A stretch of DNA of 64,000 nucleotides from Microbispora hainanensis (GTDB lineage: Bacteria > Actinomycetota > Actinomycetes > Streptosporangiales > Streptosporangiaceae): positions 62,001-126,000 of the forward strand of contig NZ_VIRM01000016.1 of NCBI RefSeq assembly GCF_006874475.1, read 5' to 3'. Numbering within the stretch: position 1 is the first letter of the stretch; each line of letters starts with the position of its first letter. A model generated the notes under the pieces. It saw only the letters and a list, made by a program, of their open reading frames with translations. It made no database searches and was not told the DNA's origin. Of the stretch, positions 2 to 46,364 are shown one piece after another. A program made the position numbers and the translations under genes.

Positions 2-403
2 GACACCGACGGCCCGGAGGTGGGGCTGGCCAGGCTGCCCCGGCTGGTGGACCGGGCCGAAGCGGCAGGGCTGCCGGTCACGACATCGACCATCGGCACG
101 CGCAGGGAGGTGCCCCCGGAGGTCGACCGGGCCGCCTACCGCATCGTGCAGGAGGCGTTCACCAACGTGCTGCGGCACGCCGGGGCCGCCTCGGTCACCG
201 TGACGATCGAATACGCGGCTGACATGATCAAACTGAGCGTCGAGGACGACGGACAGACCACGACGGGGACGGCGGACAACGGGATGGGGTTGATCGGAAT
301 GCGCGAGCGCGCGGTCGCCCTCGGCGGCTCGCTCACCGCCGGGCCGCGACCGGGGGGAGGCTTCGCCGTACGGGCCGAGCTGCCGACGGCGGCCGCCCCG
401 TGA
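2..403 (+). CDS. Sensor histidine kinase, NarL-type (3' part only)
   Basis: This is the C-terminal part of a two-component sensor kinase; its start and phosphorylated histidine lie before the window. The visible residues are the HATPase_c domain. The N box reads EAFTNVLRHA, the D box is VEDDG, and a G box with GMGLIGMRERA is followed by the usual ALGGSL and PGGGF end. This arrangement is typical of the HisKA_3/NarX-DesK class, which pairs with LuxR-type regulators. The stop codon overlaps the GTG of the response regulator by 4 bases, so the two are translationally coupled and form a cognate pair. The signal sensed cannot be told from this fragment. Confidence 0.93.
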   Translation, partial: DTDGPEVGLARLPRLVDRAEAAGLPVTTSTIGTRREVPPEVDRAAYRIVQEAFTNVLRHAGAASVTVTIEYAADMIKLSVEDDGQTTTGTADNGMGLIGMRERAVALGGSLTAGPRPGGGFAVRAELPTAAAP

Positions 404-33489: not shown

Positions 33490-34611
33490 TCAGGCGGTCG
33501 CGCAGGCGGGCGTGGGGGCCGAGTTGGCGGAGTTCCAGGAGGCGATGAAGCCGAAGGCGGTGCTCGCGCCGGCGCCGAGCGAGCCGTTCCAGCTCTCGTT
33601 CTTCACGGTCACGCTCGCCCCGCTCTGGGTGGCCTTGCCGCCCCACGCCTGGGTGACCTGCTGCCCGTTGGCGAAGGTCCAGGTCACGGTCCAGGCGCTG
33701 ACGGGAGAGGTGCCGGTGTTCTTGACCGTGACCTCACCCTGGAAGCCGCCGCCCCACTGGTTGATGATCGTGTAAGTCGCGCTGCAGCCCGAGGAACCGG
33801 ACGACGGCGAGGGGGACGGAGACGGGGACGGGGACGGAGACCGGGTCGGGGCGGGAGACGGGGTCGGCGAGGGGCTGGGGCTGGGGCTGCGCGTCGGGCT
33901 CGGGCTGGGGGACGGCTGGACGCCGCTGAGCAGCGCCGACAGCGCCGGATACCACGTGTCCGCCATCTTCTGGTTGCCGTTGTCGTTGGGGTGCACGCCG
34001 TCGTAGGTGTCCGTGCTCGTGCTGAAGCCCGTCCACTGGTCGACGACCACGATCGGGGAGGCCGTCGTGGTCTTCGAAGCGGCCCAGCCCGGGATCGCGT
34101 TGTTCAGGGCGACGGTTCGCTGGGCGCACTCGGGGCAGGTGCTCGGGTTCATCGGGATGATCTCGGCGACCAGGATCTTCATGTTCGGGTTGCTCGCCCG
34201 CATCTGGTCCACGAGCTTGCTGTAGGCCGCGAGGATCGTGCCGGTGGACCTGTTGCTCCACACGTCGTTGGTGCCGAAGTGCATCATCACGATGTCGGGA
34301 CGGGTCGCCGAGAGCCAGCCCGGGAGCTGGTTCTGGTCGGCGACGTTCGTGACCAGGGCACCGCCGTGGCCCTCGTTGTCACCGTCGTGCGCCACCCCGC
34401 ATCCCTGGGCGGGCAGCGTCCCGACCATGTCGATGTTGGTGAAGCCGCCGTTCTGCAGCTTGTTCCACAACAGGGCCCGCCAGCAGCCGGGCGACCCGGT
34501 GATCGAGTCGCCCAGAGGCATGATCCGCACCGCCGCCGCCTCGGCGGGCCGGGCGACGAGCAGCCCGAGGACCACGAGCAGGGCCGCCACCACCGCACTT
34601 CTCTTCGACAT
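33490..34611 (-). CDS. Secreted GDSL/SGNH esterase with CBM2
   Basis: A 373-residue secreted enzyme. The signal peptide ends near PAEAAA. The SGNH hydrolase domain has block I MPLGDSITG, block III HFGTNDVW and block V TYDGVHPND with the catalytic Asp and His. A Pro/Ser/Thr linker of about 45 residues (PSPSPSPTRSP repeats) leads to a family 2 carbohydrate-binding module (CSATYTIINQWGGGFQGEV, SAWTVTWTFANGQ, ending ACATA). It probably removes acyl groups from plant polysaccharides. ATG 34611 has GGGAGAG upstream. Confidence 0.95.
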   Translation of the reverse strand: MSKRSAVVAALLVVLGLLVARPAEAAAVRIMPLGDSITGSPGCWRALLWNKLQNGGFTNIDMVGTLPAQGCGVAHDGDNEGHGGALVTNVADQNQLPGWLSATRPDIVMMHFGTNDVWSNRSTGTILAAYSKLVDQMRASNPNMKILVAEIIPMNPSTCPECAQRTVALNNAIPGWAASKTTTASPIVVVDQWTGFSTSTDTYDGVHPNDNGNQKMADTWYPALSALLSGVQPSPSPSPTRSPSPSPSPTPSPAPTRSPSPSPSPSPSPSSGSSGCSATYTIINQWGGGFQGEVTVKNTGTSPVSAWTVTWTFANGQQVTQAWGGKATQSGASVTVKNESWNGSLGAGASTAFGFIASWNSANSAPTPACATA

Positions 34612-34900
34612 CGCGTCTCTCCCTCGTTCTGTCCGGCGCGATGGTAGAGAGCGCACTGTCGCCCGCCCTAGGGACGAGGCGCGGCAAAAGCCCTGACCAG
34701 CGGGGATGTATGTACGGTTCATCCGATGACGTGCCCGTCGGCGGTCGCGTCCCGGCGGCCGGTCGGATCCCGTCGAGCACACGAGGCGCAGCCGCCCCGG
34801 CTTCACCGCCTGCGGCGATGCCGGGTTCCACCTCGCCGCACGACCGAATATGCTGCACGTCGGTCTACTTTTCGCACGTCACCGAGAGGATTCGGTCCCC
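34612..34900. other. Intergenic region without a recognised gene
   Basis: A gap of 289 bases between the divergent esterase and the 30-residue peptide. I see no protein-like reading frame. Possible -10 boxes for the peptide are TATGCT (34849-34854) and TACTTT (34866-34871). Confidence 0.5.
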
Positions 34901-34993: not shown

Positions 34994-35009
34994 CGACACG
35001 TCCTGAGGA

Positions 35010-35046
35010 GGGCCGGGCCGCGAGGCCCGGCCCTTCCCTTTTTTCC
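35010..35046 (+). terminator. Intrinsic terminator with T run
   Basis: GGGCCGGGCC-GCGA-GGCCCGGCCC is a perfect 10-base stem followed by TTCCCTTTTTT. It is the best intrinsic terminator in the window. It closes the small-peptide gene and insulates the terpene operon. Confidence 0.9.
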
Positions 35047-35134: not shown

Positions 35135-35164
35135 TTGATCAATCGGAGTGGATCATGTGATACT
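35135..35164 (+). promoter_or_regulatory. Promoter of the terpene operon
   Basis: TTGATC (35135-35140), an 18-base spacer and GATACT (35159-35164), placed about 40 bases before the P450 start. TTGATCAA at 35135-35142 is an 8-base palindrome. The -10 hexamer and spacer length equal those of the promoter at 20305-20334. Confidence 0.55.
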
Positions 35165-35202: not shown

Positions 35203-36558
35203 GTGGCCGTAGACGTTGGTCGCAATTCAGCGCGAAATGCGGACGTTCTTCCCTTCTATCGGTTCCTCGCGAAGCACTCTCGCGATCCGGTCTCCGCCTT
35301 CGAGGAGGCCGGCAGGCAGGCCGGTGGCAGGCTCGTCCGGCTCAACGTGGGGCCGTTCCGGCCCTATCTGGTGACACATCCGGACCATGTTCAGCACGTG
35401 CTGCGGACCAACCAGCCCAACTATGTCCGAGAGGGGATGTTCTGGGATCCGCTGGTCCCGTTGCTCGGTGGGGGGATCCTGTCCGACGGCGAGACCTGGC
35501 AGGAGAGCCGCAGGGTCCTGCAGCCCCTGTTCACCGCGAAGTACGTCGACTCGCTGACCGAGCGCATGGCCGAGATCCTTGCCGAGCAGATCGACGCTGT
35601 CGTGCGTCCCGGGGAACCTTTCGACGTCGTCGACGGGATCTCGGCCATCGTCCATCCGACGATCGTGCGGCTCTTCTTCGGCGACCGGATCACCAGGGAC
35701 GACATCGCCCGGCTCATTCCCGCGTACGAGGTGGCGGTGACGGCCACGTGGCCGCGCCTGCTGATGCCGTTCGTCCCGAGGACGATGCCGCTGCCGGGTG
35801 ACCGGCCTTTCCGCCGGTCCATCGAGACGATCAACACCGTGGTCTATCCCCGGGTGCACGAGGCCCGCCGCACGGCGGAGGAGGGCAAGGACGTGGTCTC
35901 GGCGATCTGCCGCGCCCGCGCGGACGAACCCGGCGAGGTGGGGGACCGGCGGATCAGGGACGACATGGTCAGCATGCACGGCGCGTCCACCGAGACCTCG
36001 GCGACGGCGCTCACGTGGGTGTGGGTCGCGCTCGACGCGCATCCCGAGCTGGCGGCGAAGATCTACACGGAACTCGACGAGGTGGTCGGGACGGACCCGG
36101 TGCAGCCGTCTCATCTGCCCGAGCTGCGCTACCTGAAGATGTTCCTGTCCGAACTGGTGCGCCTGTATCCGCCGGGCTGGATCCTGCCGCGGCAGGCGGT
36201 GAAGGACGACGAGATCGACGGGGTCATGATCAAGGCCGGGTCCACGGTGATGCTCAGCCCTTACCTCACGCACCGGCTTGAGGAGTTCTGGGAGCGGCCG
36301 ACCGAGTTCGACCCCGAGCGCTTCGCACCGGGCATGGAGCGGCGGCACCGCTGGTCGTACTTCCCGTTCGGCGGCGGCCCCCACCAGTGCCTGGGGCAGC
36401 ACCTGTTCATGATGGAGGCGCAGTTGCTCATGGCGGGCCTGTTGAGCCGCTACCGGCCTGTGCTCACCGCGTCGAGGCCGGTCAGGCCGCGGCTCGCCTC
36501 CTCTCTGCGGCCGAACCAGAAGGTGAAACTCACGCTGGTCGAGCGTGCCCGCACATGA
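35203..36558 (+). CDS. Cytochrome P450 of the terpene cassette
   Basis: A 451-residue soluble P450 of the CYP4/CYP102-like shape rather than the short CYP105 type: the N-terminus LPFYRFLAKHSRDPVSAFEE has no TM. The I-helix reads MHGASTETSATAL with Glu-Thr conserved but Ser where Gly is usual. ExxR is SELVRLYPPGW, and the heme loop is FPFGGGPHQCLGQHLF. GTG 35203 is chosen (GGGGAG 8 bases before) over GTG 35188. The stop overlaps the next ATG by 4 bases. It should oxidise the product of the two cyclases downstream, with ferredoxin or reductase supplied from elsewhere. Confidence 0.93.
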   Translation: MAVDVGRNSARNADVLPFYRFLAKHSRDPVSAFEEAGRQAGGRLVRLNVGPFRPYLVTHPDHVQHVLRTNQPNYVREGMFWDPLVPLLGGGILSDGETWQESRRVLQPLFTAKYVDSLTERMAEILAEQIDAVVRPGEPFDVVDGISAIVHPTIVRLFFGDRITRDDIARLIPAYEVAVTATWPRLLMPFVPRTMPLPGDRPFRRSIETINTVVYPRVHEARRTAEEGKDVVSAICRARADEPGEVGDRRIRDDMVSMHGASTETSATALTWVWVALDAHPELAAKIYTELDEVVGTDPVQPSHLPELRYLKMFLSELVRLYPPGWILPRQAVKDDEIDGVMIKAGSTVMLSPYLTHRLEEFWERPTEFDPERFAPGMERRHRWSYFPFGGGPHQCLGQHLFMMEAQLLMAGLLSRYRPVLTASRPVRPRLASSLRPNQKVKLTLVERART

Positions 36559-37451
36559 TCATCGAGCACATCGCCAGGCAGGAGACGGCTCTCGCCGCGG
36601 ATCTGGGCAGGACATGCGCGCTCGCCGCGCGGTGCCAGCGGGACCTGCAGGCCGGCGCCGCGGCGTACGGCGAGTTGTTCCCGGCCAGGCCGTTCGATCC
36701 GGCGTTCTTCGCCGCTTTGTCGATGGTCACCGCGTTCGGCTCGCCCTGGGCGTCTCCCGACGAGCTGCGCGCGGTCGGCCGCGCGTCGCTGTGGATCTTC
36801 GCGGTCGACCGCCTGGTGGACGAGGTAGCGGGATCGCGCGCGGAGGTGGAGGCGCTGGTCGCCGAGTGCCTCGCGGCGGCCGAGACGGGCCCGGCCGGGG
36901 ACGCCCCCGCCGTGGTGCGCTTTCTCACCGATCTGCGGGACGGCCTGTCGGCGGCGCCCGCGTTCGCCGGCCTGAGGCCGGTCTGGCTCGACCGGCTCCG
37001 GCGGACGCTGCGTGGGATGGTCCGCGAGTGGCGCTGGAAGGAGGAGGGAGCGCCGGTCTCGCTGGACGAGTACCTCGACGGCGCGGACGGTTGCGGATCC
37101 TCCTTCGTGAACCTGTCCCACTGGATCAGGACGGGAGACTCCTGGACGACCGCACACATCGACGAGCTCCTGTCGGTCAGTGACGAGGTGCAGCGCTACC
37201 TGCGCCTGCTCAACGACCTGGCCACCCGGGAACGGGAGCGCGGCCAGGGCGACGTCAACGCGCTGGCCTTCGGCGCCGGCGTCGCGGAGGTGACCGCGCG
37301 CATGAACGAGATCCGCGACCGCTGCCTGACCCTTCTCGAACCCGTGCGGCAGCGCAGCCCGCGCGCCGCGGCCTACCTCGAACGACAGATCGGTTTCAAC
37401 ACGGGCTTCTACGGGCTCGTGGACTATTGGGGCGAGTTTGAACGTGCGTGA
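36555..37451 (+). CDS. Class I terpene synthase (probable diterpene synthase)
   Basis: A 298-residue all-helical protein. The first metal motif is IFAVDRLVDE (Asp85 and Asp89, a DxxxD form rather than DDxxD), and the second is the NSE triad NDLATRERE (Asn220, Thr224, Glu228), an exact match to the consensus. A VQRYLRLL segment precedes it, and a C-terminal GFYGLVDYW follows. About 300 residues is right for a bacterial class I partner of a class II cyclase. It should ionise a cyclised diphosphate made by the next gene. It overlaps the P450 by 4 bases and the cyclase by 8 or 14 bases. Confidence 0.85.
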   Translation: MIIEHIARQETALAADLGRTCALAARCQRDLQAGAAAYGELFPARPFDPAFFAALSMVTAFGSPWASPDELRAVGRASLWIFAVDRLVDEVAGSRAEVEALVAECLAAAETGPAGDAPAVVRFLTDLRDGLSAAPAFAGLRPVWLDRLRRTLRGMVREWRWKEEGAPVSLDEYLDGADGCGSSFVNLSHWIRTGDSWTTAHIDELLSVSDEVQRYLRLLNDLATRERERGQGDVNALAFGAGVAEVTARMNEIRDRCLTLLEPVRQRSPRAAAYLERQIGFNTGFYGLVDYWGEFERA

Positions 37452-39024
37452 TGCCTTCCTGGACGAGCAGCCGGACGTGGCGGTGGCCGCGGGCGAGTTG
37501 ATGCGGGATCTGATGTCCCGGCCCTGGGGGCAGGTGTCCCCGTCCGTGTACGAGACCGGGCGGCTCGTCACCCTGGCCCCCTGGCTGCTGGGCCACGACG
37601 AGCGGGTGGCGTACCTGCTCGCCACGCAGCGGCCCGACGGTTCATGGGGCGTGCCCGACGGCTATGGCCTGGTTCCCACCCTGAGTGCCACCGAGGGGTT
37701 GCTGTCGGTCCTCGCCAGGGGCGACCACAACGAGGACCGGGATGCCCTGATCGACGCGGTCCGGGGCGGGCTCGGCGTGTTGTCCGGCTGGCTGGCGGAG
37801 ACGGCGGTCGCCGCTCTGCCCGACACCCCCGCGATCGAGATCATCGTGCCGGCGCTCGTGTCGCTCATCAACGCGCACCTGGACGGTCTGGACGCGTGCG
37901 GGATCGACCGTCTGCCGATCCCCGAGGGAATGAGCGAGGGGCCGCTCACCCTGATCAGGAAGCGCCTGGAGTCCGGCGCCGCCCTGCCGGACAAGCTCCT
38001 GCACGCGCTGGAGGTGGCCGGAGGATCCGCGGCCAGTGCCCCGGCCGTCTGCCCGACCTCGATCGGCACGGTCGGAGCCTCGCCGGCGGCGACCGCGGCA
38101 TGGCTGAGCGGCACCGAGCTGCCCGATCCCGGGCACCATGCCCGGCGTTACCTGGAGGCGGTGGCGCTGCGACACGGCGGCCCGGTGCCGGTGGGCCTGC
38201 CGATCACGGTGTTCGAACGCGGCTGGGTGTTGAGCTGGCTCGCCCGCTCGGGCATCCGCTTCGACGTGCCGCCGGAGATGCTGGCCGATCTCCGCGCGGC
38301 CATCGGTCCCGAAGGCACGCCCGCCGGTGCGGGACTGCCGCCCGACGCCGACACCACCTCGGTCGCGCTGTACGCGCTGGCGCTGCTCGGCATGCCGTAC
38401 GAGCCGGACAGCCTGTGGGCCTTCGAGACGCCGACGCACTTCTGCACCTGGCAGGGCGAGGAGGGCTCCTCGGTCAGTGTGAACGCTCACGTACTGGACG
38501 CCTTCGGCCAGTACGCGGCGGCTCGGCCCGAGCAGGCGCCCCGCTACGCCGTGGTGCTGGCCAGGATCGCCGCCTGGCTGCGCGAGCGGCAGCGGGCCGA
38601 TGGAAGCTGGGACGACCGCTGGCACGCTTCGCCCTACTACGCGACGGTCTCCTGCGCGCTCGCGCTGCACGAGTTCGGCGGGCCGGAATCCGCGGCCGCG
38701 GTGCGGTCGGCCGTACGGTGGGCGCTGGACACCCAGCGCGAGGACGGCTCATGGGGCCGGTGGGGCGGCACGGCCGAGGAGACGGCGTACGCCATGCAGC
38801 TCCTGCTGATGACCGGCCCGTCGGCCGGAGACGGAGCCCGCGCCGAGGCGGTGCGGCGGGGGTACCGCTATCTGCTGCGCTCCGCCGACCCGGCGGACGG
38901 ACCGGCGCTCTGGCACGACAAGGACCTCTACCTGCCCCTGGCGGTCGTCCGGGCGGCCGTGCTCGCCGCCCTGCACCTCGCACAGGCCAGTGGACTTGTT
39001 GTCCAACAAGCCGGTCAACTATGA
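37444..39024 (+). CDS. Class II diterpene cyclase (copalyl-diphosphate synthase-like)
   Basis: A 526-residue protein with beta-gamma class II terpene cyclase features. QW-like repeats are QRPDGSWG near residues 62-69, RQRADGSWDD and QREDGSWG. The acid motif is PPDADTTS, with Asp301-Ala-Asp303-Thr304. The usual motif is DxDD; here the last Asp is Thr while the middle Asp, the proton donor, is kept. The length fits bacterial CPP synthases and Rv3377c rather than squalene-hopene cyclases. GTG 37444 has GGGGCGAG 7 bases upstream. Expected substrate is geranylgeranyl diphosphate; no GGPP synthase gene is nearby. Confidence 0.88.
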   Translation: MRDAFLDEQPDVAVAAGELMRDLMSRPWGQVSPSVYETGRLVTLAPWLLGHDERVAYLLATQRPDGSWGVPDGYGLVPTLSATEGLLSVLARGDHNEDRDALIDAVRGGLGVLSGWLAETAVAALPDTPAIEIIVPALVSLINAHLDGLDACGIDRLPIPEGMSEGPLTLIRKRLESGAALPDKLLHALEVAGGSAASAPAVCPTSIGTVGASPAATAAWLSGTELPDPGHHARRYLEAVALRHGGPVPVGLPITVFERGWVLSWLARSGIRFDVPPEMLADLRAAIGPEGTPAGAGLPPDADTTSVALYALALLGMPYEPDSLWAFETPTHFCTWQGEEGSSVSVNAHVLDAFGQYAAARPEQAPRYAVVLARIAAWLRERQRADGSWDDRWHASPYYATVSCALALHEFGGPESAAAVRSAVRWALDTQREDGSWGRWGGTAEETAYAMQLLLMTGPSAGDGARAEAVRRGYRYLLRSADPADGPALWHDKDLYLPLAVVRAAVLAALHLAQASGLVVQQAGQL

Positions 39025-39083: not shown

Positions 39084-39113
39084 TTGAGCGGTTTTCCAGC
39101 CCTTTGCTAGGGT
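39084..39113 (+). promoter_or_regulatory. Candidate promoter of the conservon
   Basis: TTGAGC (39084-39089), an 18-base spacer and TAGGGT (39108-39113) lie 115 bases before cvnA. The preceding stretch from 39030 is unusually AT-rich for this DNA. Confidence 0.45.
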
Positions 39114-39227: not shown

Positions 39228-41543
39228 ATGTCTATGCGCTTCCGGAATTCGCGTGTGCGAACCAAGGTCGCAGCCCTGCTGGTGTCACTGACCGCTCTGT
39301 GGGCGTTCGCGGCCTGGGTCACCGTCCGGGAGGGCGTCAACCTCATCTGGGCCACCACCATCGACAGCGGGGTCGCGCAGCCGAGCGAGCCGTTGCTGCT
39401 GGAACTGCAGCGCGAGCGCCGGCTGTCGGTGACCCGCGTCGGCGATCCCACCCGGGTGCTGCGCAAGGAACTGCAGGACCAGCGCGCCCGCACCGACGCC
39501 GCGATAAGCGTCTTCAGGGAGTCGGCCAGGAGCGACAGGGTCAGCCTCGCGGCCGGTGACGCGCTGATGATGCGCCTGAACGACACGCTGCGGCGGCTGG
39601 ACGGTCTGCGTCAGACCCGGTCGGCCATCGACGCCGGGCGCCTCGACCGGGTGCGGACGGAGGACGCCTACAGCGACGTCATCGACTCCTTCGACGCGAT
39701 GTACGGCGCGGTCGCCACGCTTGACGACGCCACGCTCGCCAAGGACGGCCGCACGCTGTCAGCCATGAGCCGGGCACGTGAACTGCTGGCTCGTGAGGAC
39801 GCGATGATCGCCGGGGTCTTCGCCGAGGGCCGGTTCACCGAGCAGGACCACCGGCAGTTCACCCAGCTGGTGGGGATCGCCCGGTTCGAGCTCGACCGGA
39901 CCGCCGCCGACCTGCCGCCGGCCGACCGCGCTGCCGTGGACAAGTGGAGGAAGTCGCCGTCGGCGACGACTCTCCGTAACCTCGAAGACCAGCTCTCGCT
40001 GAGCAGGCAGGCCGGCCGTCCGCCGATGGTGACGGAGACGCAGTGGCGGGGCGCCGCGGAAGCGGCGTTGATCTCGCTGCAGAAGGTGATCATCGACGCG
40101 GGTGACGCGCTGGTCGAACGGGCCATCCCGGTCGCCGTCGCCGTCTTCGCCCGCCTCCTGCTGGCCGGTGTGCTCGGCCTCGTGGCGGTCATCGCGTCGA
40201 TCATCCTGTCGATCACCACGGCCCGTGCCCTGGTGCGCCAGCTGGAGAAGCTGCGCGAGGCCGCGCTCGAACTCGCCAACGAACGGCTGCCCGGAGTGGT
40301 CGCCCGCCTCGCCCAGGGCGAGAAGGTCGACGTCAAGGCCGAGGCGCCGCCGCTCGACTTCGGGCCCGACGTCATCGGCCAGGTGGGTGCGGCGTTCAAC
40401 ACGGTGCAGGAGACCGCCATCCGCACCGCCGTCGAGGAGGCCCAGCTCCGGCAGAGCATCCGTGACATCCTGCTCAGCCTCGCCCGGCGCACGCAGTCGC
40501 TGGTGCACCGCCAGCTCACCCTGCTCGACGTGATGGAGCGGCGCGAGTCGGACCCGGCCGAGCTGAAGGACCTGTTCCGCATCGACCACCTCGCCACCCG
40601 CATGCGGCGCAACGCGGAGAACCTCATCGTGTTGTCCGGGGCGTCCCCCGCCCGCGCCTGGCGGCGCTCGGTGCCGATGGTCGACGTCGTACGCGGCGCG
40701 CTGGCCGAGGTCGAGGACTACACCCGCGTCACCGTGATGCCGATGGGGGAGATCGCGCTCCTCGGACGCGCGGTGGGCGACGTCATCCACCTGCTCGCCG
40801 AGCTGATCGAGAACGCCGTGTCGTTCTCCCCGCCGTACACGATGGTGCAGGTGGGCGGCCAGGTGGTGGCCAGCGGCTACGCGATCGAGATCGAGGACCG
40901 CGGCCTCGGGATGACCGCCGAGGACCTCGACGCGACCAACCAGCGGATCGCCGACCCGCCCGAGTTCAACCTGTCGAGCACTGCCCGGCTCGGTCTGTAC
41001 GTCGTCAGCCGCCTGGCCGAGCGGCACGGGATCAAGGTCTCGCTCAAGGCGTCGCCTTACGGCGGCACGACCGCGGTCGTGCTGCTGCCGCGGGACCTCG
41101 TCATCGAGGGCGGGGAGGACCTGCCCGAGGAGGAGACCGAGTCCGGCCTCCCGCGGCGCGGGGCCGGCTCCCGGAAGATCGCGCTCGTCGGCGCGCCCGA
41201 GGCGGTCCCCGAACCAGTTCAGGAGGTGGTTCCCGTGCCGAGGGCTCCCGAGCCGCCCAGGCCCCTGCAGAGCGTCCCACCACCGTCCGGCGGCGCCGAT
41301 CCAGGTCCCGACGGGTCCGCGCCCTCGTCCGGGTTCACCCCGTCGGGCCTGCCCTTCCGGGTGCCGCAGGCCAACCTCGCCCCCGCGCTCGCCGAGGAGT
41401 CGAGGAACGCCGACGAGGCGGACGACCAGGAGGACCGCTCGCCGGAGGACATCCGTAAGATCATGGGCTCGTTCCAGTCGGGAACGAGGCGCGGCAGATC
41501 CGAGGCCGCGAAGTTGCTGGGCGACGAGGAGGACAACCTGTGA
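39228..41543 (+). CDS. cvnA: Conservon sensor kinase CvnA (NIT domain)
   Basis: A 771-residue membrane protein. TM1 is near residues 12-32, and an extracytoplasmic nitrate/nitrite-sensing (NIT) domain covers about 40-290 with QPSEPLLLELQRERRLSV. TM2 is at about 300-325 (LLLAGVLGLVAVIASIILSI), followed by a HAMP-like linker. The kinase-like region has RTQSLVHRQLTLLDVMERRE and the HATPase has LLAELIENAVSFSPP, EDRGLGM and STARLGLYVVSRLAERHG. A Pro-rich tail follows. In conservons CvnA holds or activates the CvnBCD complex at the membrane. The stop overlaps cvnB. Confidence 0.93.
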   Translation: MSMRFRNSRVRTKVAALLVSLTALWAFAAWVTVREGVNLIWATTIDSGVAQPSEPLLLELQRERRLSVTRVGDPTRVLRKELQDQRARTDAAISVFRESARSDRVSLAAGDALMMRLNDTLRRLDGLRQTRSAIDAGRLDRVRTEDAYSDVIDSFDAMYGAVATLDDATLAKDGRTLSAMSRARELLAREDAMIAGVFAEGRFTEQDHRQFTQLVGIARFELDRTAADLPPADRAAVDKWRKSPSATTLRNLEDQLSLSRQAGRPPMVTETQWRGAAEAALISLQKVIIDAGDALVERAIPVAVAVFARLLLAGVLGLVAVIASIILSITTARALVRQLEKLREAALELANERLPGVVARLAQGEKVDVKAEAPPLDFGPDVIGQVGAAFNTVQETAIRTAVEEAQLRQSIRDILLSLARRTQSLVHRQLTLLDVMERRESDPAELKDLFRIDHLATRMRRNAENLIVLSGASPARAWRRSVPMVDVVRGALAEVEDYTRVTVMPMGEIALLGRAVGDVIHLLAELIENAVSFSPPYTMVQVGGQVVASGYAIEIEDRGLGMTAEDLDATNQRIADPPEFNLSSTARLGLYVVSRLAERHGIKVSLKASPYGGTTAVVLLPRDLVIEGGEDLPEEETESGLPRRGAGSRKIALVGAPEAVPEPVQEVVPVPRAPEPPRPLQSVPPPSGGADPGPDGSAPSSGFTPSGLPFRVPQANLAPALAEESRNADEADDQEDRSPEDIRKIMGSFQSGTRRGRSEAAKLLGDEEDNL

Positions 41544-41974
41544 CGCAGAAGACCGGGGCCTCCGCGGACCTCGCATGGCTGCTCGACGATCTCGTCGCGC
41601 GGGTCCGCGAGGTCGAGCACGGCATCGTGCTGTCCACCGACGGCCTCCTGCTGGCCGGCTCGCAGGGGCTTCACACGGAGGACGCCGAGCACCTGTCGGC
41701 CGTCGCCTCCGGGCTGCAGAGCCTGGCGCGCGGCGTCGGCGAGCGCTTCCAGGGCGGATCCGTACGGCAGACCATCGTGGAGATGAAGTCGGCCTACCTG
41801 CTCGTGACCGTGGCGGGCCAGGGCGCCTGCCTCGCCGTGCTCTGCTCGGGAGACGCCGACGTCGGCCTGGTGGCGTACGAGATGGCGATGCTCGTCGTGC
41901 GCGTCGGGCAGTACCTCACCTCGCCGGCGCGGACGACGATCGACCGGACGACGGGGAGCGAGGTCCGCCTGTGA
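41540..41974 (+). CDS. cvnB: Conservon roadblock/LC7 protein CvnB
   Basis: A 144-residue MglB/roadblock-fold protein: LAWLLDDLVARVREVEHGIVLSTDG (in part), ASGLQSLARGVGERFQGG, LVTVAGQGACLAVLCSGDADVG and a final VVRVGQYL helix. Such proteins regulate the GTPase of the conservon. GTG start with 4-base overlap to cvnA, GTGA overlap with cvnC. Confidence 0.95.
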   Translation: MTQKTGASADLAWLLDDLVARVREVEHGIVLSTDGLLLAGSQGLHTEDAEHLSAVASGLQSLARGVGERFQGGSVRQTIVEMKSAYLLVTVAGQGACLAVLCSGDADVGLVAYEMAMLVVRVGQYLTSPARTTIDRTTGSEVRL

Positions 41975-42345
41975 ACTCCGAGTGGAGCCCGGACGAGGAC
42001 CGCTTACTCGACGCGCCGACCATCCGGCCGTACGTGATCGCGCGCGGCCGCACGGAGGCGCAGGACCGCTTCGACCTCATCTCGCTCGCGGTGACGATCC
42101 GGCCCACCACGGGAACCGAGATCGGGCTGGACCCCGAGCACCAGGCGATCGTGCGGCTGTGCCGCAGGCCGCTGTCGGTCGCGGAGATCGCGGCCCATCT
42201 TGACCTGCCGGCCGGGATCGTCCGGGTCCTCCTCGGCGACCTGTTCGACCGGGGCTTCGTGGCCGTGCAGCAGCCCCAACCGGAGATGGACGTGCTCGAC
42301 GAGCGGATGTACAAGGCGGTGCTCGATGGCCTTCGGGCGCTCTGA
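41971..42345 (+). CDS. cvnC: Conservon DUF742 protein CvnC
   Basis: A 124-residue DUF742 protein with the family start RLLDAPTIRPYVIARGRTE. A winged-helix-like core follows (HQAIVRLCRRPLSVAEIAAHLDLPAG, shown in part, and VLLGDLFDRGFVAV). Its 3' end overlaps the CvnD start. It is thought to bind CvnB and CvnD and may bind DNA. Confidence 0.95.
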   Translation: MNSEWSPDEDRLLDAPTIRPYVIARGRTEAQDRFDLISLAVTIRPTTGTEIGLDPEHQAIVRLCRRPLSVAEIAAHLDLPAGIVRVLLGDLFDRGFVAVQQPQPEMDVLDERMYKAVLDGLRAL

Positions 42346-42925
42346 TTCGGGGAAGACCCCGCCGAGGATGCCCACGGCGATCAAGTTGCTGATCGCCGGT
42401 GGCTTCGGGGTGGGCAAGACCACGATGGTCGGCGCGGTGTCGGAGATCCGGCCGCTGCGCACGGAGGAGACGCTGACCGACCGCAGCGTCGGCGTGGACG
42501 ACCTGTCCGGGGTCGAGGCGAAGGCGACCACGACGGTCGCCATGGACTTCGGCCGCATCAGCATCGGGGAGGACTTCGTCCTCTATCTCTTCGGCACCCC
42601 CGGTCAGGAGCGGTTCTGGTTCGTCTGGGACGAGCTCGCCCGGGGGGCGCTCGGCGCGGTCGTGCTGGCCGACACCCGCAGGCTCGCCGACTGTTTCCCC
42701 TCCGTCGACTACTTCGAGCGCCGCGGCACGCCGTTCGTCGTCGCGGTCAACTGCTTCGAGGGCGCTCCGGTCTTCGAGCTGGACGAGGTCAAGCTCGCGC
42801 TCAACCTCAGCCAGGACGTGCCGATCATGCTGTGCGACGCGCGCAAGCGGGAATCGGGCAAGGAAGTCCTGATCGAGCTCGTCAAGCACGCGTACGGCAA
42901 GCGGCCGACCGCCGCCGCCCGCTGA
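42326..42925 (+). CDS. cvnD: Conservon GTPase CvnD
   Basis: A 199-residue small GTPase of the MglA/Rab-like bacterial group. G1 is GGFGVGKTT, G2 lies around the ETLTDRSVG segment, and G3 is FGTPGQERF with TPGQ in place of DTAG. AVNCFEGAP stands for the NKxD region, and CDARKRESGKEVL is G5-like. ATG 42326 overlaps cvnC by 20 bases. The four-gene set cvnABCD controls development, redox response or secondary metabolism in Streptomyces, each conservon having its own signal. Confidence 0.95.
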   Translation: MAFGRSDSGKTPPRMPTAIKLLIAGGFGVGKTTMVGAVSEIRPLRTEETLTDRSVGVDDLSGVEAKATTTVAMDFGRISIGEDFVLYLFGTPGQERFWFVWDELARGALGAVVLADTRRLADCFPSVDYFERRGTPFVVAVNCFEGAPVFELDEVKLALNLSQDVPIMLCDARKRESGKEVLIELVKHAYGKRPTAAAR

Positions 42926-43286: not shown

Positions 43287-44576
43287 GTGAAGTTGAGTCG
43301 GCGAGGTGCGGCGCTCCTGGCGGCGTCGGCACTGGTCCTCGGGGGATGTGGTACTTCGGGGGATGACGCCGCCGGAGAGGGCAAGAGCTCAGCCGGCGGC
43401 AAGGTGACCGTCGAGTTTTGGAATATCTGGACCACGGATCCCCTGAAGACCTACGGCGCTCAGGCGATCAAGGACTTCCAGGCCAAGCACCCGAACATCA
43501 CCATCAAGAGCGTTCCTTACGAGAACGAGGCGTTCAAGGCGAAGCTGACGACGCTCACGCAGTCGGGCAAGGCGCCGGACATCTTCCAGACCTGGGGTGG
43601 CGGCGTGCTCGCCCAGCAGGTCGACGCGGGCCTGGTGAAGGACCTCAGCGGCGACGCCGGGGACTGGCTCGGCACCTTCACCGACGCCGCGCTGTCGGCC
43701 TACCAGGTCGAGGGCAAGACCTACGCCATCCCCGACGACATCGGCATGGTGGGCTTCTGGTACAACAAGGCGCTGTTCAAGAAGGCCGGGATCGCCGAGC
43801 CTCCGGCGACGTGGTCGGCCCTCCTCGATGACGTCAAGAAGCTGAAGGCGGCCGGGATCACCCCGATCGCGCTCGCCGGCAAGGACAAGTGGCCGGGTCA
43901 CTACTACTGGGCCTACCTCGCCATGCGGATCGGCGGCCTCGACGCCCTCAAGCAGGCCGGTGGCAGCAAGGACTTCACGGGTCCGGCCTTCGTGCAGGCA
44001 GGGCAGAAGCTCAAGGAACTGGCCGACCTCCAGCCGTTCCAGAAGGGCTACCTCGGCGCGACGTACGGCGACCCGGGCGGTCAGGCCGCGACCATGGGTG
44101 ACGGCAAGGCCGCGATGGAGCTGATGGGCCAGTGGGCGCCCGCGGTCCAGAACGACGCCGGCAAGGGCCTGGGCGACGACCTCGGCTTCTTCCCCTTCCC
44201 GGCCGTGGACGGCGGCCAGGGCGCGGTCACCGACGCCTTCGGCGGCGGCGGCGGCTACGCCATCGGGGCCGACGCCCCGGCGGAGGCGATCGAGTTCCTG
44301 AAGTTCCTCACCGAGAGCACCGAGCACCGCAAGGCCGTCGCGACCGGCGGCGTGCTCCCGGTGCTGAAGGGCGAGGAGGACGCGGTCACGGACCCGAACC
44401 TCAGCGTGGTCGCCAAGAACCTCGCCACGGCCACCGGCTTCCAGCTCTACCTCGACCAGGCGTTCCCGCCGGCTGTCGGCCAGGAGGTCAACGACTCCGT
44501 GGCCGAGCTGATCGGCGGCACCAAGACGCCGGAGCAGGTGGCGCAGGCCATCACGGAAACGGCGAAGTCGGAGTAA
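43287..44576 (+). CDS. Sugar ABC transporter substrate-binding lipoprotein
   Basis: A 429-residue extracellular binding protein. The signal peptide ends in lipobox LVLGGC at about residue 20. The family 1 solute-binding fold has VTVEFWNIWTT, LTQSGKAPDIFQTWGGG, YAIPDDIGMVGFWYNKALF and GKAAMELMGQWAP. These match the xylobiose/chitobiose/raffinose-type group. GGGAA precedes the start. It is the first gene of an operon with two permeases. No dedicated ATPase is present, so a shared MsiK-type ATPase probably powers it, as known for Streptomyces importers. Confidence 0.93.
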   Translation: MKLSRRGAALLAASALVLGGCGTSGDDAAGEGKSSAGGKVTVEFWNIWTTDPLKTYGAQAIKDFQAKHPNITIKSVPYENEAFKAKLTTLTQSGKAPDIFQTWGGGVLAQQVDAGLVKDLSGDAGDWLGTFTDAALSAYQVEGKTYAIPDDIGMVGFWYNKALFKKAGIAEPPATWSALLDDVKKLKAAGITPIALAGKDKWPGHYYWAYLAMRIGGLDALKQAGGSKDFTGPAFVQAGQKLKELADLQPFQKGYLGATYGDPGGQAATMGDGKAAMELMGQWAPAVQNDAGKGLGDDLGFFPFPAVDGGQGAVTDAFGGGGGYAIGADAPAEAIEFLKFLTESTEHRKAVATGGVLPVLKGEEDAVTDPNLSVVAKNLATATGFQLYLDQAFPPAVGQEVNDSVAELIGGTKTPEQVAQAITETAKSE

Positions 44577-44583
44577 CTGTCGC

Positions 44584-45510
44584 GTGAAGACGACGAGACC
44601 CCGGAGCCTCAGGCTCCGGGGGTTCACCACTATCCTTCTGTTCCTGCTTCCCGCGCTTGTGCTCTTCTTCGGGCTCGTCGTGGCCCCGATCCTGCTCGCC
44701 TTCTACGCGAGCGTGTTCAAGTGGAACGGCATGCGCGGGCTGCCGACGGACTTCATCGGCCTGGCGAACTTCACCCGGCTGCTGGCCGACGAGGTCTTCC
44801 TCGGGGACCTGTGGCGCGGACTGCTGCTGATCATCCTGTCTCTGGTGATCCAGCTTCCCCTCTCGCTGGGCATCGCCATGCTGCTCAACCAGAGGATCCA
44901 CGGCCGGGCGTTCTTCCGCCTGCTGTTCTTCGCCCCGTACGTGTTGTCCGAGGCGATCACCGCGGTCCTCTTCATGATGATCCTGTCGCCCACCGAGGGC
45001 CTGGCCAACTACATCCTCGGCTGGTTCGGCATCGACCCCCTCGACTGGTTCGCCGACCCGTCGTCGGTGATGATGTCGGTGTTCATCGTCATGACCTGGA
45101 AGTACTTCGGCTTCCACATGATCTTGTACATCGCCGGCCGCCAGGGCATCCCGAGGGAGCTCACCGAGGCCGCCCAGATCGACGGCGCGACCGGGTGGAA
45201 GGTCTTCCGCTACGTCACGCTGCCGCTGCTCGGGCCCACGATCCGCATCAGCGTGTTCCTGTCGGTCATCGGTGCGATCCAGCTGTTCGACCTGGTCTGG
45301 ATCATCACCGGCGGAGGCCCGTCGCACTCCTCCGAGACCATGGCCGTCACGATGTTCCAGTTCGGCTTCAAACGCTTCCAGGTCGGCTACGCGAGCGCGA
45401 TCAGCGTGGTGATGTTCTTCATCAGCCTCGTGTTCGCGGTGTTCTACCAGAGATACGTCATGCGCCGCGACCTCGAAGGAGCGAGCACCGTGCTGAGGGA
45501 CCAGCGATGA
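44584..45510 (+). CDS. Sugar ABC transporter permease (MalF-type)
   Basis: A 308-residue permease with six TM segments, starting TTILLFLLPALVLFFGLVVAPI. The EAA loop that contacts the ATPase is ELTEAAQIDGATGWKVFRYV. GTG 44584 is 7 bases after the binding-protein stop. Its stop overlaps the second permease by 4 bases. It forms a heterodimer with that protein. Confidence 0.95.
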   Translation: MKTTRPRSLRLRGFTTILLFLLPALVLFFGLVVAPILLAFYASVFKWNGMRGLPTDFIGLANFTRLLADEVFLGDLWRGLLLIILSLVIQLPLSLGIAMLLNQRIHGRAFFRLLFFAPYVLSEAITAVLFMMILSPTEGLANYILGWFGIDPLDWFADPSSVMMSVFIVMTWKYFGFHMILYIAGRQGIPRELTEAAQIDGATGWKVFRYVTLPLLGPTIRISVFLSVIGAIQLFDLVWIITGGGPSHSSETMAVTMFQFGFKRFQVGYASAISVVMFFISLVFAVFYQRYVMRRDLEGASTVLRDQR

Positions 45511-46364
45511 GCGCCAACCGTCACAAGCAGTCGCCGACGTCGGGCGGTCCGCTGCGCAGCATCTCCCTGCACACGATCGTCGTGATCACGGCGTTGTTCG
45601 TCGGCATCCCGCTGCTGTACGGCGTGCTCGGCGGGTTCAAGACGACCCGGCAGCTCTCGAGCAACCCGATCGGCCTGCCCAGCCCCTGGGTGCCGGAGAA
45701 CTACACGAGCGTCCTCGGCTCCGCGTCGTTCTGGCAGATGCTCTGGAACAGCACCTACATCGCGGTGCTGACCACGCTCGTGGTCGTCGCGGTGTCCGCG
45801 CTGGCGGCCTTCGTGTTCGCGCGCTTCGCCTTCCGGGGGCGTGAGGCGCTGTTCACGATGTTCGCCGCCGGGCTCATGTTCCCGTTCGCGGTGGCGATCC
45901 TGCCGCTGTTCGTGCTGCTGCGGATGTTCGGGCTGCTGGACAACCCGCTCGGCGTGATCCTCCCGCAGGCCGCCTTCGGCATGCCGATGACGATCATCAT
46001 CCTGCGCGGCTTCTTCCGGGCCATCCCGGGAGAGATCGAGGAGGCGGCGATCCTCGACGGGTGCTCCCCGCTCGGATTCTTCTGGCGGATCCTGCTGCCG
46101 ATGGCCCGGCCCGCGATCGCCACGGTCTCCGTGCTCGCGGTGGTGAACAGCTGGAACCAGTTCATGCTGCCGCTCGTGGTGTTCAGCGACGACAGCCTGT
46201 TCACCATCCCGCTGGGCGTCATGCAGTTCCAGGGGCAGTACGCCACGGACATCGCACGCGTCATGGCCTACATCGTGGTCGCGATGCTGCCCGCCCTCGG
46301 CTTCTACGCCGTGGCCGAGCGTCAGCTGGTGAGCGGCCTGACCGCGGGGGCCATCAAGGGCTGA
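45507..46364 (+). CDS. Sugar ABC transporter permease (MalG-type)
   Basis: A 285-residue permease with six TM segments. The EAA loop is EIEEAAILDGCSPLGFFWRI, and the C-terminus VAERQLVSGLTAGAIKG is the usual end of this group. ATG 45507 overlaps the upstream permease stop. The operon ends here, with no hydrolase gene attached. Confidence 0.95.
   Translation: MSANRHKQSPTSGGPLRSISLHTIVVITALFVGIPLLYGVLGGFKTTRQLSSNPIGLPSPWVPENYTSVLGSASFWQMLWNSTYIAVLTTLVVVAVSALAAFVFARFAFRGREALFTMFAAGLMFPFAVAILPLFVLLRMFGLLDNPLGVILPQAAFGMPMTIIILRGFFRAIPGEIEEAAILDGCSPLGFFWRILLPMARPAIATVSVLAVVNSWNQFMLPLVVFSDDSLFTIPLGVMQFQGQYATDIARVMAYIVVAMLPALGFYAVAERQLVSGLTAGAIKG

Follow-up and report, generated by a model that had tools for sequence, protein, structure and literature searches.

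The terp1 cluster of Salinispora arenicola, to which the sat cluster is almost identical, encodes a class I terpene synthase, a class II cyclase and the cytochrome P450 (P450) CYP1051A1, and yields isopimara-8,15-dien-19-ol according to the available text of PMC9814573. In the sat class I enzyme, Sat1646, Tyr183 and Tyr288 are described as the base that removes the C-9 proton, and the Y183F variant makes isopimara-8(14),15-diene (PMC9814573). No terp1 product was observed in pure culture, according to the available part of PMC10301674. Here we compare this system with a locus of Microbispora hainanensis (assembly GCF_006874475.1, contig NZ_VIRM01000016.1, positions 62,001 to 126,000), a stretch of 64,000 nucleotides referred to below as the window. 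At positions 35203-39024 of its forward strand, which carries all features described here by coordinates with a strand, the window holds a cassette of three genes for a P450, a class I diterpene synthase and a class II diterpene cyclase, followed by the conservon cvnA-B-C-D. We propose that cassette and conservon make up one block in which the cassette provides the enzymes, that the cassette makes an oxidised pimarane-type diterpenoid resembling resin acids and that production is tied to conservon signalling, a reading to which we assign a probability of roughly 0.6. The product, the control by the conservon and the sensing role are what we infer from the comparisons below.

An initial annotation, made without database searches, had read the cassette as a P450 together with two diterpene synthases, one of class II and one of class I, encoded by three genes whose stop and start codons overlap. 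The frames and coordinates proved correct and the Pfam matches agree; the P450 stop and the class I start overlap in ATGA, and the class II start overlaps the class I end as well (37444 versus 37451). The synthase pair is borne out by the best solved matches, PtmT2 and Sat1646, and by the metal ligands present. The annotation had also known of no described cluster of this make-up, a claim that does not hold. Terp1/sat (SaDTS/Sat1646, SaCPS/Sat1645 and CYP1051A1) combines class I, class II and P450 as the window does, and the cassette, with these three genes in one operon and homologous to terp1/sat, belongs with the terp1-type pimarane clusters. A search with Sat1646 of 354 genomes from a second family (f37), probably Micromonosporaceae because it holds this match, returned a single genome (G866) with a 98% match. 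The locus concerned (L195) has P450, class I and class II genes in the window's order and then a conservon, with identities to the window of 44% for the P450, 44% for class I, 53% for class II and 51% for cvnA, and its class II protein has the same DADTT and WHDKDLY motifs. Judged by gene content, the three-gene make-up is thus not new, because terp1/sat has the same gene set and L195 the same order. The two systems differ at the class I active site, where Sat1646 has Tyr183 and Thr85 and the window Cys180 and Phe82.

Conservons are common in actinobacteria, and according to the available part of PMC13343842 their sensed inputs and controlled genes are mostly open. Their accessory genes, as described there and in PMC8510531, include a P450 (CvnE) and a GAF protein (CvnF), and conservon inputs are called unexplored. 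In indole prenyltransferase clusters, more than ten homologous examples of which are described from various actinomycetes, the biosynthetic genes always lie beside a conservon (PMC3617294, in the text available). Those clusters make prenylated indoles and have the conservon upstream, whereas the window has diterpene genes with the conservon downstream. In Streptomyces coelicolor, the cvn8 conservon acts as a repressor of the lanthipeptide cluster next to it and also influences other clusters (PMC8510531, PMC13343842, both as available); unlike the window, it has a CvnA8 without an extracellular sensor domain, an accessory CvnF and another product class. No description of a conservon paired with a diterpene synthase was found in the literature searched, and a word search of the main text of PMC9814573 returned no word beginning with kinase, GTP, regulat or conservon. 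The new part is the lasting union of the diterpene cassette with a conservon, the enzyme make-up itself having already been described.

A conservon that stays with the cassette

The conservon, missed by the initial annotation, starts 204 bases downstream of the cassette and is present in full and in order. It consists of cvnA (39228..41543, +), encoding a NIT-domain sensor histidine-kinase-like protein (PF08376, E 4.7e-44; HATPase, E 1.3e-12), cvnB (41540..41974, +), encoding a roadblock/LC7 protein (PF03259, E 8.7e-25), cvnC (41971..42345, +), encoding a DUF742 protein (PF05331, E 1.6e-33), and cvnD (42326..42925, +), assigned to a conservon-type small GTPase with the P-loop GGFGVGKTT by PF03029 (E 3.7e-33) and operon position. 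Gene order was scored at 100 loci that carry relatives of the class I gene (59 in the window's own family, 41 in f37), with class I identities to the window's down to 41%. These loci were picked and not random, being drawn from best matches, the own genus, about one per genus, and extras; the conservon was scored in them by cvnA, and cvnC was not looked for there. The order P450, class I, class II, cvnA on one strand was found in 53/59 own-family loci and in 19/21 and 15/20 f37 loci, 87/100 in total, with L068, whose contig stops short of the P450, scored as order kept. In 91/100 loci cvnA lay within 7 kb (90 at a 1e-20 cut, at which the weak cvnA of L119 falls out), where the chance of such adjacency is about 1% per locus, given seven CvnA in 8.7 Mb. 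The conservon of L204 and L207 is inverted and on the upstream side of the cassette, still adjacent, and in L201 and L209 class II does not lie between class I and cvnA. Seventeen further named loci, several of them duplicate genomes of the 100, were not added to these counts; 14 of the 17 had the order class I, class II, cvnA (L006 being cut before the P450), and the three from Actinomadura (L015, L017, L018) had P450, class I and cvnA without class II between, with a class II 56-59% identical elsewhere in the genome.

As a neighbour control, cvnA and other window genes lying no more than 8.5 kb from class I were counted in these 100 loci. In the own genus (14 loci), cvnA was found in 14, the GDSL lipase in 13, a short-chain dehydrogenase/reductase (SDR) in 10, PucR in 9 and the ATP-binding cassette (ABC) solute-binding protein in 13. 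In the rest of the own family (45 loci), the corresponding numbers were 38 for cvnA, 2 for the lipase, 0 for SDR, 0 for PucR and 1 for ABC, and in f37 (41 loci) 38, 0, 0, 0 and 1. Beyond the genus the conservon stays, whereas the other four neighbours are nearly all gone. Moreover, the block CvnA matched the window's own CvnA best, among the seven of the window's genome, in 89/89 loci with CvnA (97 examined, the named loci included, with some genomes represented twice) and in 19/19 of a further set (20 examined). Because the best match was always this one of seven, the CvnA of the block is, by sequence match, one orthologous type. The genome's four other PF19086 matches lie on contigs C230, C79 and C201, none of which carries one of the seven CvnA.

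We consider it possible, though rather unlikely, that the cassette is a diverged terp1 copy making isopimara-8,15-dien-19-ol and the conservon a passive neighbour left in place by slow genome rearrangement. That terp1-like L195 has these three genes in this order would fit, as would the own genus, which keeps the lipase, SDR, PucR and ABC genes too (9 to 13 of 14 loci), and the lipase retained in Herbidospora. Outside the genus, however, these four genes persist in only 0-2/45 and 0-1/41 loci versus 38/45 and 38/41 for cvnA, and in L204 and L207 the conservon has flipped without leaving. Likewise, the replacement of the Tyr183 base by Cys180 and of Thr85 by Phe82 argues against a diverged terp1 copy with an unchanged product.

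Transcription was considered from conserved promoter footprints, since a generic sigma-70 scan of the cassette found no promoter reaching threshold and footprinting supplied the promoters. The cassette promoter, TTGATC-18 nt-GATACT (35135..35164, +), had been placed at the same positions in the initial annotation; sub-threshold in the scan, it stands on its conservation, the pattern TTGATC-N15..20-G[AG]TACT occurring upstream of the P450 in 26/52 own-family loci versus a mean of 0.0 in mononucleotide shuffles. The upstream terminator proposed there was also detected, as an intrinsic-terminator-like hairpin of 13 pairs with a T tail (35007..35036, +) that ends the upstream unit and resembles sequence found in near relatives. 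A separate promoter precedes the conservon, TTGAGC-18 nt-TAGGGT (39084..39113, +), conserved as TTGA-16..21-TA..[GA]T in 83/90 loci versus 1.9 expected, and the cassette promoter motif was found upstream of cvnA in 0/90 loci. The view that these signals isolate the cassette is incomplete: cassette and conservon have separate promoters, but together they make up one conserved block.

Several observations weigh against a functional link of cassette and conservon and against a pimarane product. Adjacency alone is no proof of regulation, and the two conserved footprints indicate that cassette and conservon are two transcription units with two separate promoters. The cassette footprint is absent in 26/52 own-family loci and found in 0/39 f37 loci, and no element common to the cassette and conservon promoters was seen by eye. 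Nine of the 100 loci have a class I gene without cvnA nearby (L111, L114, L116, L125, L126, L128, L166, L175 and L200), and seven named Herbidospora loci still have the upstream lipase, at a distance of 3 to 5 kb ahead of the P450. As for the product, a pimarane is favoured by M. hainanensis CSR-4, which makes 2alpha-hydroxy-8(14),15-pimaradien-17,18-dioic acid and has several terpene clusters in its genome (PMC7338456, which in the text available does not assign the compound to genes), but the link of this compound to the cassette is indirect, running through another locus (L060) and a strain other than CSR-4. The L060 class II is 99.8% identical over 516 residues to an M. hainanensis-named protein (P0137); its class I, about 51% identical to the window's, has Phe at the Tyr183 place, which fits an 8(14) double bond because Sat1646 Y183F makes isopimara-8(14),15-diene. 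Finally, kinship does not fix the skeleton made by this synthase family, because among related genera Acrocarpospora makes abietanes (PMC9854854) and Actinomadura geliboluensis produces kauranes (PMC11857663), as the available parts of these papers describe.

If cassette and conservon do work together, a conservon type staying with one biosynthetic set (91/100 loci) gives each half a partner: the diterpenoid or its cue is then a candidate input, and the synthase operon a candidate for what is controlled. Such a link would also offer a reason for the silence of terp1 in pure culture, which is as expected if the cluster is signal-gated. A reading of the block as a diterpenoid hormone system is decidedly unlikely in our estimate; here an oxidised pimarane would be released, and the adjacent NIT-domain CvnA and small GTPase would be its receptor and relay, kept in fixed order across many species of two families and also in the silent Salinispora terp1 type. 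The block is further a genetic lead for Microbispora pimaranes and perhaps for norditerpenoids of Actinomadura and Streptosporangium, genera from which the orphan compounds actinomadurol, JBIR-65 and k4610422 are described (PMC10951976, PMC10301674, in the parts available). At a guess, these three compounds may belong to such blocks.

Class I relatives of the window's synthase are widespread at E <=1e-20 in its own family, in 165/297 genomes and 29/68 genera. At 1e-15 they were found in 43/150 f37 genomes, and a Sat1646 query at 1e-60 matched 170/354 f37 genomes. At class level, also at 1e-15, 19/394 genomes had a match, of which only G477, a member of f37, lies outside the own family.

The two synthases

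The class I gene (36555..37451, +; ATG start; PF19086, E 2.1e-10) encodes a Sat1646-like diterpene synthase. Sat1646 is its best solved relative (250 bits, 44% identity), with Stt4548 next, and NCBIfam has no family for it. The AlphaFold model (predicted local distance difference test score, pLDDT, 94.6) superimposes on 7e4n with a template modelling (TM) score of 0.91 at 44% identity. Both metal-binding motifs named in the initial annotation are in place, DRLVD at residues 85-89 (36807..36821, +) and the NSE motif NDLATRERE at residues 220-228 (37212..37238, +). Together with the predicted alpha fold, these DDxxD-type and NSE motifs place the protein among the class I synthases. Conservation was read from the best 120 of 133 matches, the window's protein included and one homologue of <255 aa dropped. 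In this set Asp85 is kept in 119/120 and Asp89 in 117/120 (3 Glu), and the NSE positions are Asn220 in 119, Asp221 in 120, Thr/Ser224 in 120, Arg227 in 120 and Glu/Asp228 in 120; the sensor Arg217 and Tyr286 are each present in 119/120. The second Asp of the DDxxD-type motif is Arg in the window and Trp in Sat1646.

The Tyr183-Tyr288 dyad of Sat1646 is not retained in the window, where Tyr288 is kept as Tyr286 and the place of Tyr183 is taken by Cys180 (37092..37094, +; placed by family alignment and the available text of PMC9814573). This position varies in the family, with F 46, C 27, T 17, Y 11, L 9, I 5, S 3 and others 2, and the place of Thr85 is Phe82 in the window and Phe in 115/120. 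Given the product of Sat1646 Y183F, the changes from Tyr183 to Cys180 and from Thr85 to Phe82 make it likely that the window's enzyme sets a different double-bond position from the Sat1646 product, or takes a further step.

The class II gene (37444..39024, +; GTG start, alternative TTG at 37438; PF13243, E 3.8e-17) encodes a copalyl-diphosphate-synthase-like diterpene cyclase. Its closest solved relative is PtmT2, the platensimycin ent-copalyl diphosphate synthase (5bp8; 422 bits, 49% identity over 494 aligned residues), and the model (pLDDT 84.7) matches 5bp8 with a TM score of 0.88 at 46% identity, so that both synthase models agree with the folds of their solved relatives. The QxxDGSW repeats and the acid motif named in the initial annotation are both present, although the latter is DADTT (residues 301-305; 38344..38358, +) and not the textbook DxDD. 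Whereas PtmT2, which makes ent-copalyl diphosphate, has DSDD, the window's family has DxDTT or DADST. In the best 120 of 1583 matches (window's protein included, one of <480 aa dropped) the motif is DADTT in 111, DADST in 5, DCDTT in 3, DSDTT in 1 and DxDD in 0; the central acid Asp (Asp303) is kept in 120/120, and so is Asp492 in WHDKDLY (38911..38931, +), an Asp that work on Tpn2 ties to labdane rather than clerodane products (PMC9814783, as available). With these two residues and the predicted beta-gamma fold the protein belongs to the class II cyclases of the bacterial copalyl-diphosphate-synthase family, the fourth Asp of DxDD missing in 120/120.

It is very improbable that the class II protein is inactive for want of this fourth Asp and that class I works alone on linear geranylgeranyl diphosphate (GGPP) or farnesyl diphosphate. 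PtmT2 and Tpn2 do have the full DxDD, and the three Actinomadura loci, L201 and L209 lack class II beside class I. Against inactivity stand the invariant central acid, a ratio of nonsynonymous to synonymous substitution rates (dN/dS) of 0.25-0.29 and the class II, 56-59% identical, elsewhere in each of the three Actinomadura genomes. We take DADTT to be active, judging from the alignments, because the central Asp is kept throughout, the terp1-like class II of L195 also has DADTT, and Rv3377c (6vpt) aligns with DCDTT at the acid motif. For all three cassette genes dN/dS against two near relatives was 0.23-0.31, which points to purifying selection. A sesquiterpene reading of class II as drimenyl-diphosphate-like, from its DxDTT motif, was rejected, as drimenyl synthase is a much poorer match than PtmT2, Tpn2 or Rv3377c.

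In six lone class I copies of genus g4, taken as Nonomuraea (L111, L114, L116, L125, L126 and L128), key residues have been lost: Gly replaces the NSE Asn in 6/6, His or Leu the sensor Arg in 6/6, and Tyr288 has become Thr, His or Asn. The P450, class II and cvnA are all missing nearby, and in two of the six a cvnD-like gene follows 1.3 kb downstream.

The P450, precursor supply and proposed pathway

The P450 gene (35203..36558, +; GTG start; PF00067, E 1.3e-67) encodes an intact heme motif, FGGGPHQCLG. Its NCBIfam matches, all to P450 families and led by albaflavenone and pentalenene oxygenases, stayed below the cutoff. The protein is 43.6% identical to the P450 of L195, which may be regarded as CYP1051A1-like because the L195 class I is 98% Sat1646, and we label the window's P450 CYP1051-like on the assumption that about 40% identity defines a P450 family. 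It is also very improbable that this P450 is a CvnE-type conservon accessory, part of a sensor and not biosynthetic: some conservons do include such a gene (PMC13343842, PMC8510531, in the parts available), but accessory genes are described as lying after cvnA-D and overwhelmingly with a CvnA lacking the sensory NIT domain, whereas here the P450 lies upstream in a separate operon that it opens, CvnA has NIT, and the L195 counterpart sits in the cluster type for which CYP1051A1 is reported. We therefore read the P450 as biosynthetic, because CvnA has NIT and the P450 precedes the synthases.

The cassette contains no prenyl synthase and the genome has five PF00348 genes, so that GGPP likely comes from elsewhere, as had been supposed. 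In two of the five (L023 and L024) the residue five positions ahead of the first Asp motif is small, which we take to be a sign of GGPP synthases. A frame that encodes two class I terpene synthase domains is found about 2 kb away from the GGPP-synthase-like L023 (genome G000, contig C230).

In the proposed pathway, a prenyl synthase encoded elsewhere in the genome would supply GGPP, and the class II cyclase would protonate it via Asp303, the central Asp of DADTT. Copalyl diphosphate would then be released, as the presence of Asp492 suggests, probably with the normal stereochemistry that terp1 has. This intermediate would be ionised by the class I synthase with Mg at Asp85/Asp89 and Asn220/Thr224/Glu228, and ring C closed to a pimarenyl cation. 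Because Cys180 occupies the place of the Sat1646 base Tyr183, the proton would probably be lost from a position other than C-9, which could yield an 8(14),15-diene, for instance. The CYP1051-like P450 would oxidise this olefin, probably at a C-4 methyl, and the NIT-domain CvnA and the GTPase CvnD would control expression of the cassette or sense its product.

Two further features flank the block in the window. A GDSL lipase/acylhydrolase that also carries a cellulose-binding CBM2 domain is encoded before the cassette, at 33490-34806, and a sugar ABC transporter, comprising a solute-binding protein (PF01547) and permease-like frames, follows the conservon at 43287-46364.

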